The notes beneath the pieces are model-generated. The model saw only the letters and a program-made list of their open reading frames with translations. It did not search any database and was not told the origin of the DNA. DNA of 5,880 nt. Origin: a bacterium. GTDB lineage: Bacteria > UBP15 > UBA6099 > JAJRTR01. Location of the stretch: the NCBI GenBank assembly GCA_024278215.1, contig JAJRTR010000188.1, positions 1 through 5,880 on the forward strand, written 5' to 3'. A program made the position numbers and the translations under genes. Within the stretch, counting starts at the first letter, position 1. Every line of letters starts with the position of its first letter. This document shows, in pieces, positions 1 through 5,880 of this stretch.

Positions 1-245
1 AGGGAACCTTGAAGATCGACCCCGGCTATCGCGCCGTAAGGTTTATACGGTATCGCGGTGCTGCCCGGTTCCTTGCTCTGGAGATGATACGGTGTTTCCC
101 ATCAGCCGAATGGATAGAAGTTGTAGTATTATTGTTCACTGTAAACTTTTTCATTATCCCCTCGCTTTTCGTTTCCGTCCGGCATTCTTTATTTTGCTTC
201 TACTATAGTTATCGCCTGTTTTTATAGTTGCTAAACGTGATTTCG
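1..245. other. Left flank, no confident gene
   Basis: A plus-strand frame is open from the window edge to a TAG at about 227. Its first 35-40 codons (to about position 115) have mixed composition that could be the tail of an upstream gene. After that it becomes a hydrophobic, pyrimidine-driven run (many Phe, Leu, Val) that looks like translated AT-rich intergenic DNA. A second plus frame is also open over the same stretch, and the minus strand is broken by stops in the first 120 bases. I recognise no family and no RNA gene. Small repeats are present: GGAACC near 3-8 answered by GGTTCC near 68-73, and a direct repeat TATAGTT at 204-210 and 223-229. It is best treated as the end of an unidentified upstream feature plus intergenic DNA. 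Confidence 0.3.
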
Positions 246-261
246 TGTAACATCGCTCACA
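246..261. promoter_or_regulatory. Degenerate CRP/FNR-type site (site A)
   Basis: The bases read TGTAA-CATCGC-TCACA, one mismatch from the TGTGA-N6-TCACA format bound by CRP-like regulators. On its own it would be weak. It is supported by the exact palindrome centred 23 bp downstream and by three more exact copies further on. Confidence 0.4.
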
Positions 262-268
262 CTCGCCG

Positions 269-284
269 AGTGATGTTTGTCACT
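269..284. promoter_or_regulatory. CRP/FNR-type palindrome (site B)
   Basis: The bases read AGTGA-TGTTTG-TCACT, a perfect 5-bp-arm palindrome around a 6-bp spacer. The core GTGA-N6-TCAC matches the CRP-type recognition format (known for CRP; HcpR sites reported in Desulfovibrio are similar). It pairs with site A, but the 23-bp centre distance is not a whole number of helical turns. It lies almost 500 bp from dxr, so it may serve another promoter or act through looping; this is inference. Confidence 0.55.
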
Positions 285-508
285 CTTGCACTTCAGACCG
301 GTTATCACGAGAATGTCCGTTCCCGGGATTATCAAGCACTCACGCACCCTGATTTCTTTCTTTCTTGATTCGTCATTTTTTCTCGTCGTTTCCATGTTGT
401 ACTCCCCTTTTCACTTTTTTGTTTTCTCGAGTGAAGGTTCGCTTGTTTTGTCGTCCTCGTCCCTTCAATCGCCATGACTACGCGGCTGCATAGCGTTTTA
501 TTGTGCCG
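285..508. other. Pyrimidine-rich non-coding stretch
   Basis: The plus strand here is strikingly rich in T and C, especially from about 350 to 470, with runs such as TTTCTTTCTTTC and CTTTTTTG. Open frames on either strand are short and give biased peptides (Ser/Leu/Phe on plus, Lys/Arg on minus), as expected from composition alone. No start with a ribosome binding site and no known domain was seen. It separates the two clusters of CRP-type palindromes and is most likely intergenic. A structural or spacer role cannot be tested here. Confidence 0.45.
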
Positions 509-524
509 GGTGACGTACATCACA
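509..524. promoter_or_regulatory. CRP/FNR-type palindrome (site C)
   Basis: The core is GTGA-CGTACA-TCAC at 510-523, flanked by G on the left and A on the right. It is the first of three closely spaced exact matches to GTGA-N6-TCAC. Its centre is 32 bp from that of site D, near three turns of B-DNA, so regulators bound at both would lie on about the same face. Confidence 0.6.
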
Positions 525-540
525 GAATTTTTGTTTTTCG

Positions 541-556
541 CGTGAGCTGCATCACG
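541..556. promoter_or_regulatory. CRP/FNR-type palindrome (site D)
   Basis: The bases read CGTGA-GCTGCA-TCACG, with perfect 5-bp arms. The spacer resembles those of sites C and E: T at its third position, C at its fifth and a purine at its sixth. That gives a shared core GTGA-nsTRCR-TCAC and suggests recognition by the same protein. Confidence 0.6.
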
Positions 557-571
557 GAAAAGCAATTGTTA

Positions 572-587
572 TGTGACCTGCGTCACG
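572..587. promoter_or_regulatory. CRP/FNR-type palindrome (site E)
   Basis: The bases read TGTGA-CCTGCG-TCACG, with an exact GTGA-N6-TCAC core at 573-586. It is the copy nearest to dxr. Its centre (579.5) lies about 110-125 bp upstream of the first bases likely to be transcribed from the -10 candidates at 691-707. That is further than the usual class I or II CRP activator positions near -61 and -41. Either a nearer promoter exists that I do not see, or the sites repress or loop. Confidence 0.6.
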
Positions 588-638
588 GATGTCCCGGTCA
601 TAAACCGCCTTCACCCGCAAACCTGACATTTCTGCAAC

Positions 639-662
639 ATTTCACAATTCCTTGTGTGAAAT
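639..662. repeat. Perfect inverted repeat upstream of dxr promoter
   Basis: ATTTCACA at 639-646 and TGTGAAAT at 655-662 are exact reverse complements separated by 8 bases. Each arm contains the TGTGA half-site in everted orientation (TCACA...TGTGA). It could therefore be an operator for the same regulator bound in an unusual geometry, an operator for another dimeric repressor, or a short hairpin. It sits about 30 bp upstream of the first -10 candidate, where a repressor or activator could act. Confidence 0.5.
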
Positions 663-690
663 ATGGTACTATTTCCATTAATGTATACAA

Positions 691-707
691 TATAATGGAT
701 GTATAAT
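691..707 (+). promoter_or_regulatory. Candidate dxr operon promoter (-10 elements)
   Basis: Two exact TATAAT hexamers occur at 691-696 and 702-707, in the most AT-rich stretch before dxr. Neither has a good TTGACA-like -35 at 16-18 bp; the best for the second is a poor TTAATG at 678-683. That fits a promoter that needs an activator, though AT-richness alone can create such hexamers. Transcription would begin near 703 or 714, giving a leader of about 58-70 bases to the ATG at 773. A TGTATACA palindrome (682-689) lies just upstream. Confidence 0.4.
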
Positions 708-772
708 GAGAAGAATAGCGGATTTTAGCAACTTTGAGCGCGAATAAAGCACAATACACAACAACTACACCA

Positions 773-1957
773 ATGAAACCTCCGGACAAACCTCGCAGGG
801 TCGTTGTCCTTGGCTCGACGGGAACGCTGGGTGTGAAAGCGCTAGACATTATTTGCAATTTCCCCGACCGGTTTGAGTTGCTCGGTATTTCCGCCAACAG
901 AAATATTACCCTCGTGAAAAAACAGATAAGGAAATATAAACCGCGACTGGTATGCGTGGGCGGCGCAGGGGCGGCGGCGTCACTGGAGAAGTGGATGGAC
1001 GGAAGCGGCGTCTGTGTATGCAGCGGCGCGGCCGGCCTCGCCCGGCTCGCCGCCGACAATGACGCGGACGCTGTCTTCAACGGGGTTTCCGGCATCAGCG
1101 GTCTCGCTCCGACACTCGCGGCGCTTGAAAACGGTACGCAGGTGCTCACAGCCAATAAGGAAAGCCTCGTCGCGGGTGGTGATCTTATTCAGAAAACCGC
1201 GCGGAAAAGCGGTGCGAAGATCATCCCTGTAGACAGCGAGCATTCCGCTGTGTTCCAGTGTCTCCAGGGCCGGCGAAAGGACGAAGTGAGCAGGATCGTA
1301 CTCACTGCTTCAGGCGGTCCGTTCCTGCACAGAAAGAATCTCAAGAACATAACACCCGCGAAGGCGCTTGTGCATCCGAACTGGAGCATGGGCGCAAAGG
1401 TGACTATCGACTCGGCGACGATGATGAACAAAGGACTCGAACTCCTGGAAGCGGCTTGTCTCTTTGCCGTACCCGGCGAACGCCTGGGTGTCGTTGTGCA
1501 CCCTGAAAGCATAGTTCACGCTATTGTCGAGCTTGTGGACGGCAACGCCGTTTCCCTGATGGGAGAGCCCGACATGCGGCTGCCTATTATGTATGCGCTT
1601 TCCTATCCGTGCAGGTTGCCCGCGGGAGCGGGCCGCGAGTTCCGGTCGGAATCGATCGGTTCTCTGACGTTCCTGGAGCCGGATACAGTGAAGTTCCCAT
1701 GCCTTGCACTGGCGCGGGCGGCGATGCGGATGGGCGGCGACGCGGGGGCGGTGCTCAGTGCGGCGGATGAAGTGGCTGTGGATGCTTTCATTAAAGAGAA
1801 GATCGGTTTTTCCGACATCTACACGGTGGTGGAGACAGCGCTTGAAAACGCGGCGGACAAGTCGGGCAAACTCGACTCGCTCGACGAAATCATGGACGCC
1901 GATGCACGCGGTCGCCGCGCCGCGCAGACTGCTGTGAAAGAAATAGCAACGAAATAA
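773..1957 (+). CDS. dxr: 1-deoxy-D-xylulose 5-phosphate reductoisomerase
   Basis: Dxr (IspC) rearranges and reduces 1-deoxy-D-xylulose 5-phosphate to 2-C-methyl-D-erythritol 4-phosphate with NADPH and a divalent metal, the committing step of the cytosolic MEP isoprenoid pathway. The 394-residue length is normal (E. coli 398). Visible motifs are the NADPH-binding GSTGTLG (14-20, usually GSTGSIG), TANKES (126-131), PVDSEH with metal ligands D154 and E156, SGGPF (180-184), HPNWSMG (201-207), MMNKGLE (217-223) whose E223 is the third metal ligand, HPES (243-246, more often HPQS) and GEPDMR (264-269). It looks intact. The ATG at 773 is preferred because it leaves a normal short N-terminus. An in-frame TTG at 734 would add 13 residues rich in Thr. 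Neither start has a Shine-Dalgarno; the leader before 773 is A/C-rich. The TAA stop overlaps the next ATG by one base. Confidence 0.96.
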   Translation: MKPPDKPRRVVVLGSTGTLGVKALDIICNFPDRFELLGISANRNITLVKKQIRKYKPRLVCVGGAGAAASLEKWMDGSGVCVCSGAAGLARLAADNDADAVFNGVSGISGLAPTLAALENGTQVLTANKESLVAGGDLIQKTARKSGAKIIPVDSEHSAVFQCLQGRRKDEVSRIVLTASGGPFLHRKNLKNITPAKALVHPNWSMGAKVTIDSATMMNKGLELLEAACLFAVPGERLGVVVHPESIVHAIVELVDGNAVSLMGEPDMRLPIMYALSYPCRLPAGAGREFRSESIGSLTFLEPDTVKFPCLALARAAMRMGGDAGAVLSAADEVAVDAFIKEKIGFSDIYTVVETALENAADKSGKLDSLDEIMDADARGRRAAQTAVKEIATK

Positions 1958-3219
1958 TGAAAAGAAAACAACAGAATATAAACAACATGAATACCAAGTC
2001 GAAAATCTTTATGACGTCAGTCATTATGTGTTTCGTGCTGACTGCCGCAGTGCTGCTGCTCGGCCGGTCATACCTGAAAAACATGAAGGCGGCACGGCAG
2101 GCACAGGCGCTCAGGCAACATGCCGGGCAACTCCATAAGGCGGTGTTCGGAAAAGATAAAAAGACCGGCAGAATCACGGGCGTCGCGGGCGATATTAGAT
2201 TCGGGCTGACACTCGATGCCGAACTTCAGCGCATCGCCGAAGACATGCTGAAAGCCTACAATCCAGTAAAGGCTTCCTTTATACTGCTGGACGCCGAAAC
2301 GGGCGAAATAATGGTAATGGCGGCATTCTCGCGCAAGCGCGTGGAGTTGCCGATGTCGGGCAGATATAAAACATTCCTGGACCCGATACACCGAAGTTCG
2401 GCGCACCCCATGGCGTCGATTGCAAAGCTGGTGACCGCCTCGGCAGCCATCGAAAAAAAGATTTTCGGACCAGGCGACACTTTTCATTGCAGCGGGAAAT
2501 TCTCGATCAAGGGCAAAGGCTCGATCTCCGACCCGAAAGGCGTCGCCCACGGCGATATCACAATGGGACGCGCGCTCGCGTCGTCGTGCAATCCTGTTTA
2601 TGCGCAAATAGCTGTGAAGGTCGGTCGTGCGGCGCTTGTCGAGTACTTCGACCGGTTCGCGTTCAACAGGCCGATCCCGTTCGACCTGCCGCTCGAGGAG
2701 AGCATGGCGTCTGTCGGCAACGACGATTACCGGCTGGCGCGTGCCGGGTCGGGGTTCGAAGGCGCGTGGATTTCGCCGGTTCACGCCGCGGCGATAGCAG
2801 GCGCTTTCCGTAACGGCGGGAGGATGATGAAACCGTATTTTATTCAGTCGATAAGCGGGCCCGGCGGGAAACTTTACGGTGCAAAGAAGTCGATAATCGC
2901 CACACCCGTTTCCGCACGCACGGCGAAGACACTGGGGCGGATGATGTCCGGCACGGTGAACGGACCGGGCGGCACGGCATACAAAGGTTTCTATAAGAAT
3001 GGCGAGTCGATTACCGGCCATGTTCGATTCGTCGGCAAAACAGGCTCGCTCAGCGGCGATGCGCCCCAGTTACATTACGCGTGGTTCATCGGTCACGTGG
3101 AAAAAGGAGGCCGTCCCCTGGCCTTTTCGTCTCTTGTTGTCAACGATGGAACATGGAAGATAAAAGCGGCCTCTTTTGCCGGTCAATACTTCAAGGCTGT
3201 TGTGGATGATATTAGATAA
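1957..3219 (+). CDS. Membrane-anchored penicillin-binding transpeptidase
   Basis: This 420-residue protein is a probable D,D-transpeptidase that cross-links peptidoglycan stem peptides in the periplasm and would be a beta-lactam target. A basic N-terminus is followed by one membrane segment (about 17-36), a short linker, then a transpeptidase domain opening with LDAELQRIAED and SFILLDAETGEIMVMA. The three active-site motifs are present and ordered: S154-I-A-K157 (nucleophile and general base), S210-C-N212 and K361-T-G-S364. There is no glycosyltransferase domain and almost no room for a class B pedestal domain, so it is a minimal PBP (PbpA/FtsI/PBP2-like fold). A carboxypeptidase role or another in-vivo substrate is possible. 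The start overlaps the dxr stop (TAATG); an ATG at 1987 (residue 11) would also keep the membrane segment. No clear ribosome binding site is seen. Translation is probably coupled to dxr. Confidence 0.88.
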   Translation: MKRKQQNINNMNTKSKIFMTSVIMCFVLTAAVLLLGRSYLKNMKAARQAQALRQHAGQLHKAVFGKDKKTGRITGVAGDIRFGLTLDAELQRIAEDMLKAYNPVKASFILLDAETGEIMVMAAFSRKRVELPMSGRYKTFLDPIHRSSAHPMASIAKLVTASAAIEKKIFGPGDTFHCSGKFSIKGKGSISDPKGVAHGDITMGRALASSCNPVYAQIAVKVGRAALVEYFDRFAFNRPIPFDLPLEESMASVGNDDYRLARAGSGFEGAWISPVHAAAIAGAFRNGGRMMKPYFIQSISGPGGKLYGAKKSIIATPVSARTAKTLGRMMSGTVNGPGGTAYKGFYKNGESITGHVRFVGKTGSLSGDAPQLHYAWFIGHVEKGGRPLAFSSLVVNDGTWKIKAASFAGQYFKAVVDDIR

Positions 3220-3220
3220 T

Positions 3221-5611
3221 ATGACACTGAGAACAAAGATAATATTCACAGTCGGATTCCTCGTGGCGGTAATGATAGGGGTAGCCGTGTGGTGGACCGG
3301 TTCGGACGGCCGGGGCGGCGGGCGCGACGCGGCGGCGGCGTGGGAAAACGGTTGTTTCAGCCGCAGTGTCGAACTCATCGAAAACGGCGAGACGGAACTC
3401 GGCGAAGAATCTCTCGAACTCTGCCGACGCAGCCTGGCGCTCCAGGGACAGAAGCTCGGCACATTCGACTGGGAAAACGAGCGCATACGATTTGATGGTA
3501 TCGTGAAAGACTGGACGCCCGTGTGGCCCGGTGACGACGAAAACCAGACAAACGGCAACGGCGGCAAGGCGCAGCCGATGTCGAAGTCGGAGATCGAAAG
3601 CCGCATAAAAAAAATCGACACCTTTATTCTGAACTCGCCGCAAAGTTATTTTGTAAGCCCGGCGATAATCCTCAAGGGTATGCTGCTGTACCAGGAGGGT
3701 AGTTACAGCGAATGTGTCGAGTGGCTGATGCAGAACAACGGACACCGCGGTTTCGAGGTGCTGCCCACATACTCGCGCAACCTGATAGCACGCGCGGCGG
3801 TGAAGGCCGGGCTGCTCGAACTCGCCACCGAGCAGATCAACCGGCTCGAAGTCGAGTTTCCCGGCACGGAGATGACGGGTAAGGCACTGCTGCTCAAAGC
3901 GGAGATACTCGCGGAACAGGGCCGGCTCAGGTCCGCTATGAATGTATTGTGGCGCGTGGCGCGTGGCAACTTCCCGCCGATTGTGCGCGGACAGGCGTTG
4001 CTCGAAGCCGCGAAGATATACAATGAATCGGATCAACCCGAGTACGCTGTAACGGCACTGACGGAAATCGCGCGTCTCTATCCAAAAGCCAACGTCAAAG
4101 ACCATCTGCTCGACTACATCGACGTCGAAAACGGCTCTCTTACAATGAAAGACCGTATACTGCTGGCCGACTATTATAAAAAGGTTGAAAAAGGATACCC
4201 GATACAGAGACTGCTCTCGCCTGTGAAAAACAAACTGCCGCCCGAGGGGAAGCTGCTTCTCGCGAACGGGTACTTTCTGGCAGGGAAATACGGCAGCACT
4301 CGAACGGTGTTGCGCGGACTCGGCCCGGACGCGCCGCGCGATGTTCTCGCGCAGGCATGTATGCTCAGGGGCGAGTCGATAATCAAGCAAAAAAACTGGT
4401 CCGGCGCGGCCGGGCACCTGGAGGCCTGCCTGAAGAAGTTTCCGTCGATGGCAAAAGAATACACCGAGCGTCTCGTGACACTGTATGGCATAACCGGCGA
4501 CGACAGGCGGCGAGCGGAACTGCTCATCGCGCTGAGCGAGGCCGAACCCGGCCACGAAAAAGAAGACGAGCACTACCTCAACGCTGCACGCTGGTTCCTG
4601 ACCTCCGGGGATCACGCGCGTGCCGAAGAAATATACAACGTGCTCATATCACGCTACCCCCGCCGCTATTCCGCCGCGGAAGCGCTGTTCTGGCTCGGCA
4701 AACTGCGCATGTACCGTGATGATATGCCCGGCGCGATCGAGAAGTTCACACAACTGCGCGAGCGGTTCCCTTATTCCTATTTCTATTACAGGGCAGGCCG
4801 GATCCTCGTGCAGAACGGATACGCTATGGCCGCGCACAATTCGCACCTGCGCCCCGACTCGAATTACTCGATCTTCCCCGGCACGAGCCAGCGTCTGCGC
4901 GACGGCAACGCTCTGCGCCACATGCACCTCTATGACGACGCGCTCTATGAATTCGAGAACGCGCTCGAACTATATCCGCGTGAGGCCACCGTCGGCATAT
5001 CACGTGTATACCGCGCTCTAAATAATATGCCGTCTTCAGTGAAAAGACTCGAAGAAATGATAAAAGTCGATCCGAAGTTCTATGCCGCCGTCATGGGCAG
5101 CGACGAACTCACCGAATTGCTTTTTCCCACCATGTTTCTCGATGCCGGACGCCGGGAAGCCGCGCGTTACGGCATGAATCCCGCGTGGCCCTTCTCCATC
5201 ATCAGGCAGGAAAGCCGCTTCAAACCCGACGCCACCTCCTGGTCGAACGCTAAGGGCCTCATGCAGATAATTCCATCCACAGGCCGCTGGATAGCACAAA
5301 AACTGAATGTGCGGCCTTTCTACACGAACTCACTGTATAAGCCGCAGCAGAACATCCCCTTCGGCACATGGTATTTCTCACACCTTCTGGAGACTTTCGA
5401 TGGCAACGCCGAATACGCTGTCGGCGCATACAACGGCGGCCCCGGCAACATGCGGAAATGGATCGCAAAGTATGACACGAGCGACATCGACATGTTCATC
5501 GAGAGCATTCCGCGCGACGAATCCCGCGGATACATCAAAAAAGTCATGCTCAACTACTATATATACAGCGCACTTCTCCAGGAAAAACAGCTCGCCGAAC
5601 GCCGCGATTGA
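3221..5611 (+). CDS. TPR-like lytic transglycosylase, Slt family
   Basis: This 796-residue protein is a probable murein lytic transglycosylase that cleaves the MurNAc-GlcNAc bond to form 1,6-anhydro ends in the periplasm. An N-terminal hydrophobic segment (about 7-25, after basic residues) is a membrane anchor or signal peptide. A long helical region follows (about 130-640) with TPR-like pairs, clearest around 215-290, 447-520 and 565-610. The C-terminal SLT domain (about 655-783) has catalytic E664 in QESRF, GLMQ (679-682), AYNGGPG (736-742) and the closing FIESIPRDESRGYIKKV segment, matching the Slt70 type. SWSNAKGLMQ differs slightly from the usual SxxGAxGLMQ. It is longer than E. coli Slt70 (645 residues), the extra length being helical repeats. 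The ATG at 3221 lies one base past the preceding stop and gives a clean signal-type N-terminus. An ATG at 3206, with AAGG at 3193-3196, is a real alternative overlapping the upstream gene by 14 bases. Confidence 0.92.
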   Translation: MTLRTKIIFTVGFLVAVMIGVAVWWTGSDGRGGGRDAAAAWENGCFSRSVELIENGETELGEESLELCRRSLALQGQKLGTFDWENERIRFDGIVKDWTPVWPGDDENQTNGNGGKAQPMSKSEIESRIKKIDTFILNSPQSYFVSPAIILKGMLLYQEGSYSECVEWLMQNNGHRGFEVLPTYSRNLIARAAVKAGLLELATEQINRLEVEFPGTEMTGKALLLKAEILAEQGRLRSAMNVLWRVARGNFPPIVRGQALLEAAKIYNESDQPEYAVTALTEIARLYPKANVKDHLLDYIDVENGSLTMKDRILLADYYKKVEKGYPIQRLLSPVKNKLPPEGKLLLANGYFLAGKYGSTRTVLRGLGPDAPRDVLAQACMLRGESIIKQKNWSGAAGHLEACLKKFPSMAKEYTERLVTLYGITGDDRRRAELLIALSEAEPGHEKEDEHYLNAARWFLTSGDHARAEEIYNVLISRYPRRYSAAEALFWLGKLRMYRDDMPGAIEKFTQLRERFPYSYFYYRAGRILVQNGYAMAAHNSHLRPDSNYSIFPGTSQRLRDGNALRHMHLYDDALYEFENALELYPREATVGISRVYRALNNMPSSVKRLEEMIKVDPKFYAAVMGSDELTELLFPTMFLDAGRREAARYGMNPAWPFSIIRQESRFKPDATSWSNAKGLMQIIPSTGRWIAQKLNVRPFYTNSLYKPQQNIPFGTWYFSHLLETFDGNAEYAVGAYNGGPGNMRKWIAKYDTSDIDMFIESIPRDESRGYIKKVMLNYYIYSALLQEKQLAERRD

Positions 5612-5651
5612 CATGTGACATGCCTGCTATTTCATTTCATAACCCGCGCGG

Positions 5652-5680
5652 TCCGGAAGTGCCGTTCCCCGGATTCTTTG
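5652..5680 (+). terminator. Weak candidate terminator after the operon
   Basis: TCC-GGAA at 5652-5658 can pair with TTCC and GGA at 5665-5673 around a GTGCCG loop, with a two-base CC bulge on the 3' arm. A modest T-rich tail (TTCTTTG) follows. It starts about 40 bases past the last stop codon, a sensible place for transcription to end. The short bulged stem and poor T-tract make it weak; Rho-dependent termination is equally possible. Confidence 0.3.
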
Positions 5681-5682
5681 TG

Positions 5683-5714
5683 AAAAACCCTGAGCATATA
5701 TTCAGGACTCCTGA
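5683..5714 (-). terminator. Alternative hairpins, possible minus-strand terminator
   Basis: CCTGA (5689-5693), TCAGG (5702-5706) and CCTGA (5710-5714) allow two mutually exclusive 5-bp stems sharing the middle arm. Read on the minus strand, the stem 5689-5706 is followed by a short run of T (5683-5687 on plus is AAAAA), the layout of a weak intrinsic terminator for a convergent gene lying to the right. No such gene is visible inside the window, and the stem is short, so this is tentative. Confidence 0.2.
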
Positions 5715-5880
5715 CCTGGGAGAAGGGTAGAAAAGAGGGCATGGCGAGAGTGGCACACAAAAAAGCGTATGAATAAAGGAAAAATGTCGAGTGGAGAGAA
5801 AGATAACAAAATATGACGGGACGCTACAAAGGGAAAAAAGAAATGATAAAATATAGGGAACACATACATCAGTGAGTGGG
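5715..5880. other. Purine-rich right flank, no gene seen
   Basis: The plus strand is dominated by A and G, roughly three quarters by eye. Minus frames stay open simply because pyrimidine-rich strands lack stops, and they translate to Ser/Phe/Leu/Pro-biased sequence. Three ATGs (5741, 5782 and 5843) start frames of only 10-11 codons. No promoter, RNA or domain is recognisable. Confidence 0.35.

Follow-up and report, generated by a model that had tools for sequence, protein, structure and literature searches.

A putative CRP-type operator array upstream of dxr in a UBP15 bacterium

Related operators and regulators

The tfoX promoter of Vibrio belongs to class III and carries tandem CRP operators at -41.5 and -84.5 (PMC4595672). 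Here we compare it with a 5,880-nucleotide stretch of DNA, hereafter the window, which is the whole of contig C166 in a 4.55-Mb assembly of 207 contigs, 95% complete, from an uncultured bacterium (G000). The likeness to tfoX-type class III CRP promoters lies in the presence of several CRP-type palindromes at one promoter, with predicted synergy between them. Unlike tfoX, the window has three exact-core sites placed 31-32 bp apart and about 123-197 bp from the inferred start, its candidate target is an isoprenoid/cell-wall operon, and the regulator was not found in the assembly. A second point of comparison comes from tandem pairs that adjoin a crp gene in three genomes of the same bacterial order (G001, G002 and G003). 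These pairs have the palindrome core and tandem layout of the window, but they are 23-24 bp apart and lie at the 3' end of crp, not at dxr.

The FNR operator reads TTGAT-N4-ATCAA and does not fit the window, where the half-sites are GTGAY or GTGAG. The HcpR motif of Desulfovibrio, wTGTGAnnnnnnTCACAw, is CRP-like (PMC545781, PMC1274295), so the motif in the window does not by itself separate HcpR from CRP; HcpR targets are hcp and electron-transport genes. Rex sites read GTGAA...TTCAC (PMC2883068) and have the outer GTGA...TCAC in common with the window, from whose half-sites they differ at the next base. Across the CRP family, the G and A of GTGA correlate with residues R180 and E181 (PMC1274295).

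The palindrome array and the dxr operon

The features of the window are as follows.

270-283, no strand: distal palindrome 4, GTGATGTTTGTCAC; exact match, possible auxiliary site
510-523, no strand: CRP-like palindrome 1, GTGACGTACATCAC; exact pattern match
542-555, no strand: CRP-like palindrome 2, GTGAGCTGCATCAC; exact match, within direct repeat family D1
573-586, no strand: CRP-like palindrome 3, GTGACCTGCGTCAC; exact pattern match
686-707, plus strand: overlapping -10-like boxes from a hexamer scan, TACAAT at 686, TATAAT at 691 and TATAAT at 702; putative function
773-1957, plus strand: dxr, 1-deoxy-D-xylulose 5-phosphate reductoisomerase (PF02670, PF08436, PF13288)
1957-3219, plus strand: penicillin-binding protein, transpeptidase domain (PF00905)
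3221-5611, plus strand: TPR protein with lytic transglycosylase (SLT) domain (PF01464 and TPR families)

The pattern GTGANNNNNNTCAC gives four exact GTGA-N6-TCAC matches in the window, three adjacent and one distal. A first-pass annotation had reported three exact palindromes in 79 bp ahead of dxr; exact matching confirmed them and added the fourth at 270-283, which it had missed, and Pfam likewise puts dxr next downstream, with the penicillin-binding transpeptidase and the TPR/SLT lytic transglycosylase after it. The centres of sites 1 and 2 are 32 bp apart and those of sites 2 and 3 are 31 bp apart, or about three helical turns. The annotation's view that the cluster is not chance also held, with at least four matches in 0 of 200 dinucleotide shuffles of the window (mean 0.06) and a triple within 79 bp in 0 of 200,000 first-order simulations of the 772-bp upstream region. 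Across G000 the GTGAN6TCAC pattern occurs 74 times, compared with 43 for the reversed control, from which about 4e-5 triples within 79 bp are expected per genome. Tandem exact pairs occur only in the window array and at C59:919-955 (reversed control, 0), and the pattern is thus neither equally dense throughout the genome nor a dispersed repeat, the outcomes that the annotation had set against its own reading.

The extended form TGTGA...TCACA is present on one side only at sites 1 and 3, is lacking at site 2 and at 270-283, and is complete at no site in the window. Natural CRP sites are often degenerate at the outer TGTGA/TCACA positions, so its lack weakens a CRP-type assignment without excluding it. 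The base that follows GTGA is a pyrimidine in seven of the eight window half-sites. A search of the window against Rfam gave no match. At 640-661, downstream of the array and short of the -10 boxes, lies an inverted repeat, TTTCACA-N8-TGTGAAA, which has CRP half-sites in reversed order.

The -35 boxes that pair with the -10-like boxes at 686-707 are poor, with 2-3 of 6 matches, and positions 1-900 hold no full sigma-70 consensus. A sigma-54 search found no match on the dxr strand and one weak GG-N10-GC on the other. The minus strand has one near-consensus -10 hexamer (at 333, with a poor -35) in the stretch scanned, and no convincing gene was seen in window 1-720. Relative to a putative start set from the best -10 boxes, the array centres fall at about -123 to -187 or -134 to -198. 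Activating CRP sites of class I or II are centred near -41.5 or at about -61.5 to -93.5; the array would therefore lie farther upstream than usual, the start site being a guess. By eye, the plus strand is pyrimidine-rich at 120-480 and purine-rich at 5640-5880, with no convincing genes in either region.

For comparison we used six genomes of the same order, none from the same family, and dxr was found in five. Their Dxr proteins are 46-50% identical to that of the window. In the copies read (that of G006 in part), dxr directly follows ispE and is itself followed by a penicillin-binding protein gene, and the 1.5 kb preceding dxr held no GTGAN6TCAC, even when one mismatch was allowed. The ispE gene was not located in G000. 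The first-pass annotation had staked its reading on conservation before dxr in close relatives; in the order-level relatives used here, the array is not conserved at that place. With dxr directly after ispE and no array in the order relatives, the intergenic region and its array appear specific to the lineage of the window, as far as can be tested.

CRP-like motifs and the regulator

The full motif TGTGAN6TCACA occurs 18 times in G000 and 4 times in the reversed control (Poisson expectation 4.3, p about 7e-7). It is similarly frequent in the relative G002 (17, compared with 3) and was counted at 4-7, compared with 0-1, in the other relatives. By ORF reading of the neighbourhoods, about 12 of the 18 G000 sites are intergenic, and one of these precedes a FecR-domain gene by 300 bp. 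Of the 36 half-sites in the full set of 18, 27 have a pyrimidine directly after GTGA. These counts, with the regulon viewed through a sample of the listed motif sites, support a CRP-like regulon in G000. A second array, at C59:919-978 (L161), precedes a histidine-phosphatase gene; of its three GTGAN6TCAC palindromes, spaced 22-23 bp apart, two are exact and the third has a single mismatch. It resembles the crp-adjacent array of G001 and G003, part of the spacer included.

Three of the relatives have a CRP-family gene whose stop codon is followed, 15-33 bp further on, by a tandem GTGAN6TCAC pair (G001 C97, G003 C42 and G002 C436); in G001 and G003 this array precedes a FecR-domain gene. The CRP-family protein of G003 comprises domains PF00027 and PF13545 and is similar to solved CRP structures. 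In E. coli CRP, residues R180, E181 and R185 contact the operator; by alignment, all three are kept in the CRP of G001, G002 and G003. The gene divergent from crp in G001 and G003 has a class III cyclase domain at its end; cyclase domains have nine matches in G000.

Despite its 95% completeness, the G000 assembly had no HTH_Crp match above the cut-off and no full-length CRP homologue; a CRP query retrieved only cNMP-binding proteins without an HTH, and those that were read lack the HTH_Crp DNA-binding domain. No crp gene lies beside the C57 ortholog of the cyclase-bearing TPR neighbour of G001 crp, and the missing G000 regulator could therefore not be located by synteny. Among the less complete genomes G004, G005 and G006 no CRP-family gene was found, and G005 has one tandem array. 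Since the G000 assembly is 95% complete, the gene may simply be missing from it, and most likely it sits in the unassembled ~5%. The first-pass annotation had placed the palindromes in the format of the CRP/FNR superfamily, with CRP and HcpR as examples, and had proposed a search of the genome for such regulators. The CRP part gains from the enrichment of TGTGAN6TCACA and from crp beside tandem sites in G001, G002 and G003, nothing specific was found for HcpR, and no superfamily member with an HTH was detected in G000.

Interpretation of the array

The palindromes very probably form an operator array of CRP type. We favour, with moderate confidence, an operator array that is particular to this lineage and serves a CRP-family regulator of the cNMP-responsive type, in a long intergenic region that drives dxr, the penicillin-binding protein and the lytic transglycosylase. 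Each palindrome would hold one regulator dimer; at a spacing of 31-32 bp, the three dimers would all lie on one side of the helix and bind cooperatively. Once bound, they may modulate a promoter with good -10 boxes (691-707) and weak -35 boxes, a combination that tips the balance slightly towards activation over repression. What is inferred is that a regulator of this kind binds the window array, that it targets dxr, and which sign the regulation takes; the best explanation, CRP-family control of dxr, passes through three such steps, namely the presence of the regulator, the target and the sign.

We also considered that the array is a CRP-family operator that either controls a divergent gene beyond the left end of the contig or works through a loop between 270-283 and 510-586. 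The contig begins at base 1, so the true target could be a divergent gene out of view to the left; the lack of a convincing gene in 1-720, the fourth site at 270 and the distance of the array from the inferred dxr start all fit this reading. However, the minus strand offers only the single near-consensus -10 at 333 in the stretch scanned, and dxr is the nearest gene, and on balance we consider this reading unlikely. Slightly less probable still is a regulator outside the CRP/FNR superfamily that reads GTGA-N6-TCAC, such as Rex or a winged-helix repressor yet to be characterised, a reading that came into consideration because the G000 assembly contains no HTH-bearing CRP. The sites share their outer bases with the Rex operator TTGTGAAW4TTCACAA (PMC2883068), and a few G000 sites (C22, C112) are Rex-like. 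The Rex operator itself was rejected for the window, where A follows GTGA in none of the eight half-sites and a pyrimidine predominates, and the tandem layout next to crp in three sister genomes argues against a non-CRP regulator more generally.

Chance, or a dispersed repeat devoid of regulatory meaning, is very improbable. The bare GTGAN6TCAC pattern is mildly enriched genome-wide, and G000 carries many dispersed repeats, but the simulations produced no triple, the same tandem layout is seen beside crp in relatives, and the window has no copy of the repeats found in G000, on which ground a dispersed-repeat origin of the array was rejected.

Under the favoured reading of a CRP-family operator before dxr, the window array appears to be a genuine control region of a fairly ordinary sort. 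A bolder version, which we hold possible but doubtful, is that in this lineage dxr has been parted from its usual neighbour ispE and now answers to a CRP-family switch of three dimers, through which a cyclic-nucleotide signal would adjust isoprenoid supply together with two peptidoglycan enzymes. A literature search for CRP control of dxr or dxs returned no relevant title or abstract. If CRP-family control of dxr is correct, cell-wall remodelling and the provision of lipid-carrier precursors in this little-known group would be linked to a global signal of the cAMP type. The group also gains a crp gene and a CRP motif; since systems of this kind are familiar, the advance is modest.

Other repeats and motifs were observed in these genomes. 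Several sites of the form TGTGAAAT...TCACA, for example TGTGAAATATATCACA, are common to G001, G003, G004 and G006 and look Rex-like. Outside the window, contigs of G000 carry a palindromic dispersed element of ~181 bp with 17-bp terminal inverted repeats (GAGCCAATTGCAAAATT), copies of which include L015:1580-1760, L237:1802-1979, L237:2819-2997 and L281:2215-2393. It has 18 matches in 195 kb of G000 DNA and none in 136 kb of order relatives; it folds as one long hairpin and is MITE-like. A second dispersed repeat of G000, about 144-151 bp long and 90-95% identical between copies, is found at L161:403-553, L244:4925-5067, L240:2358-2500 and L013:1383-1533.
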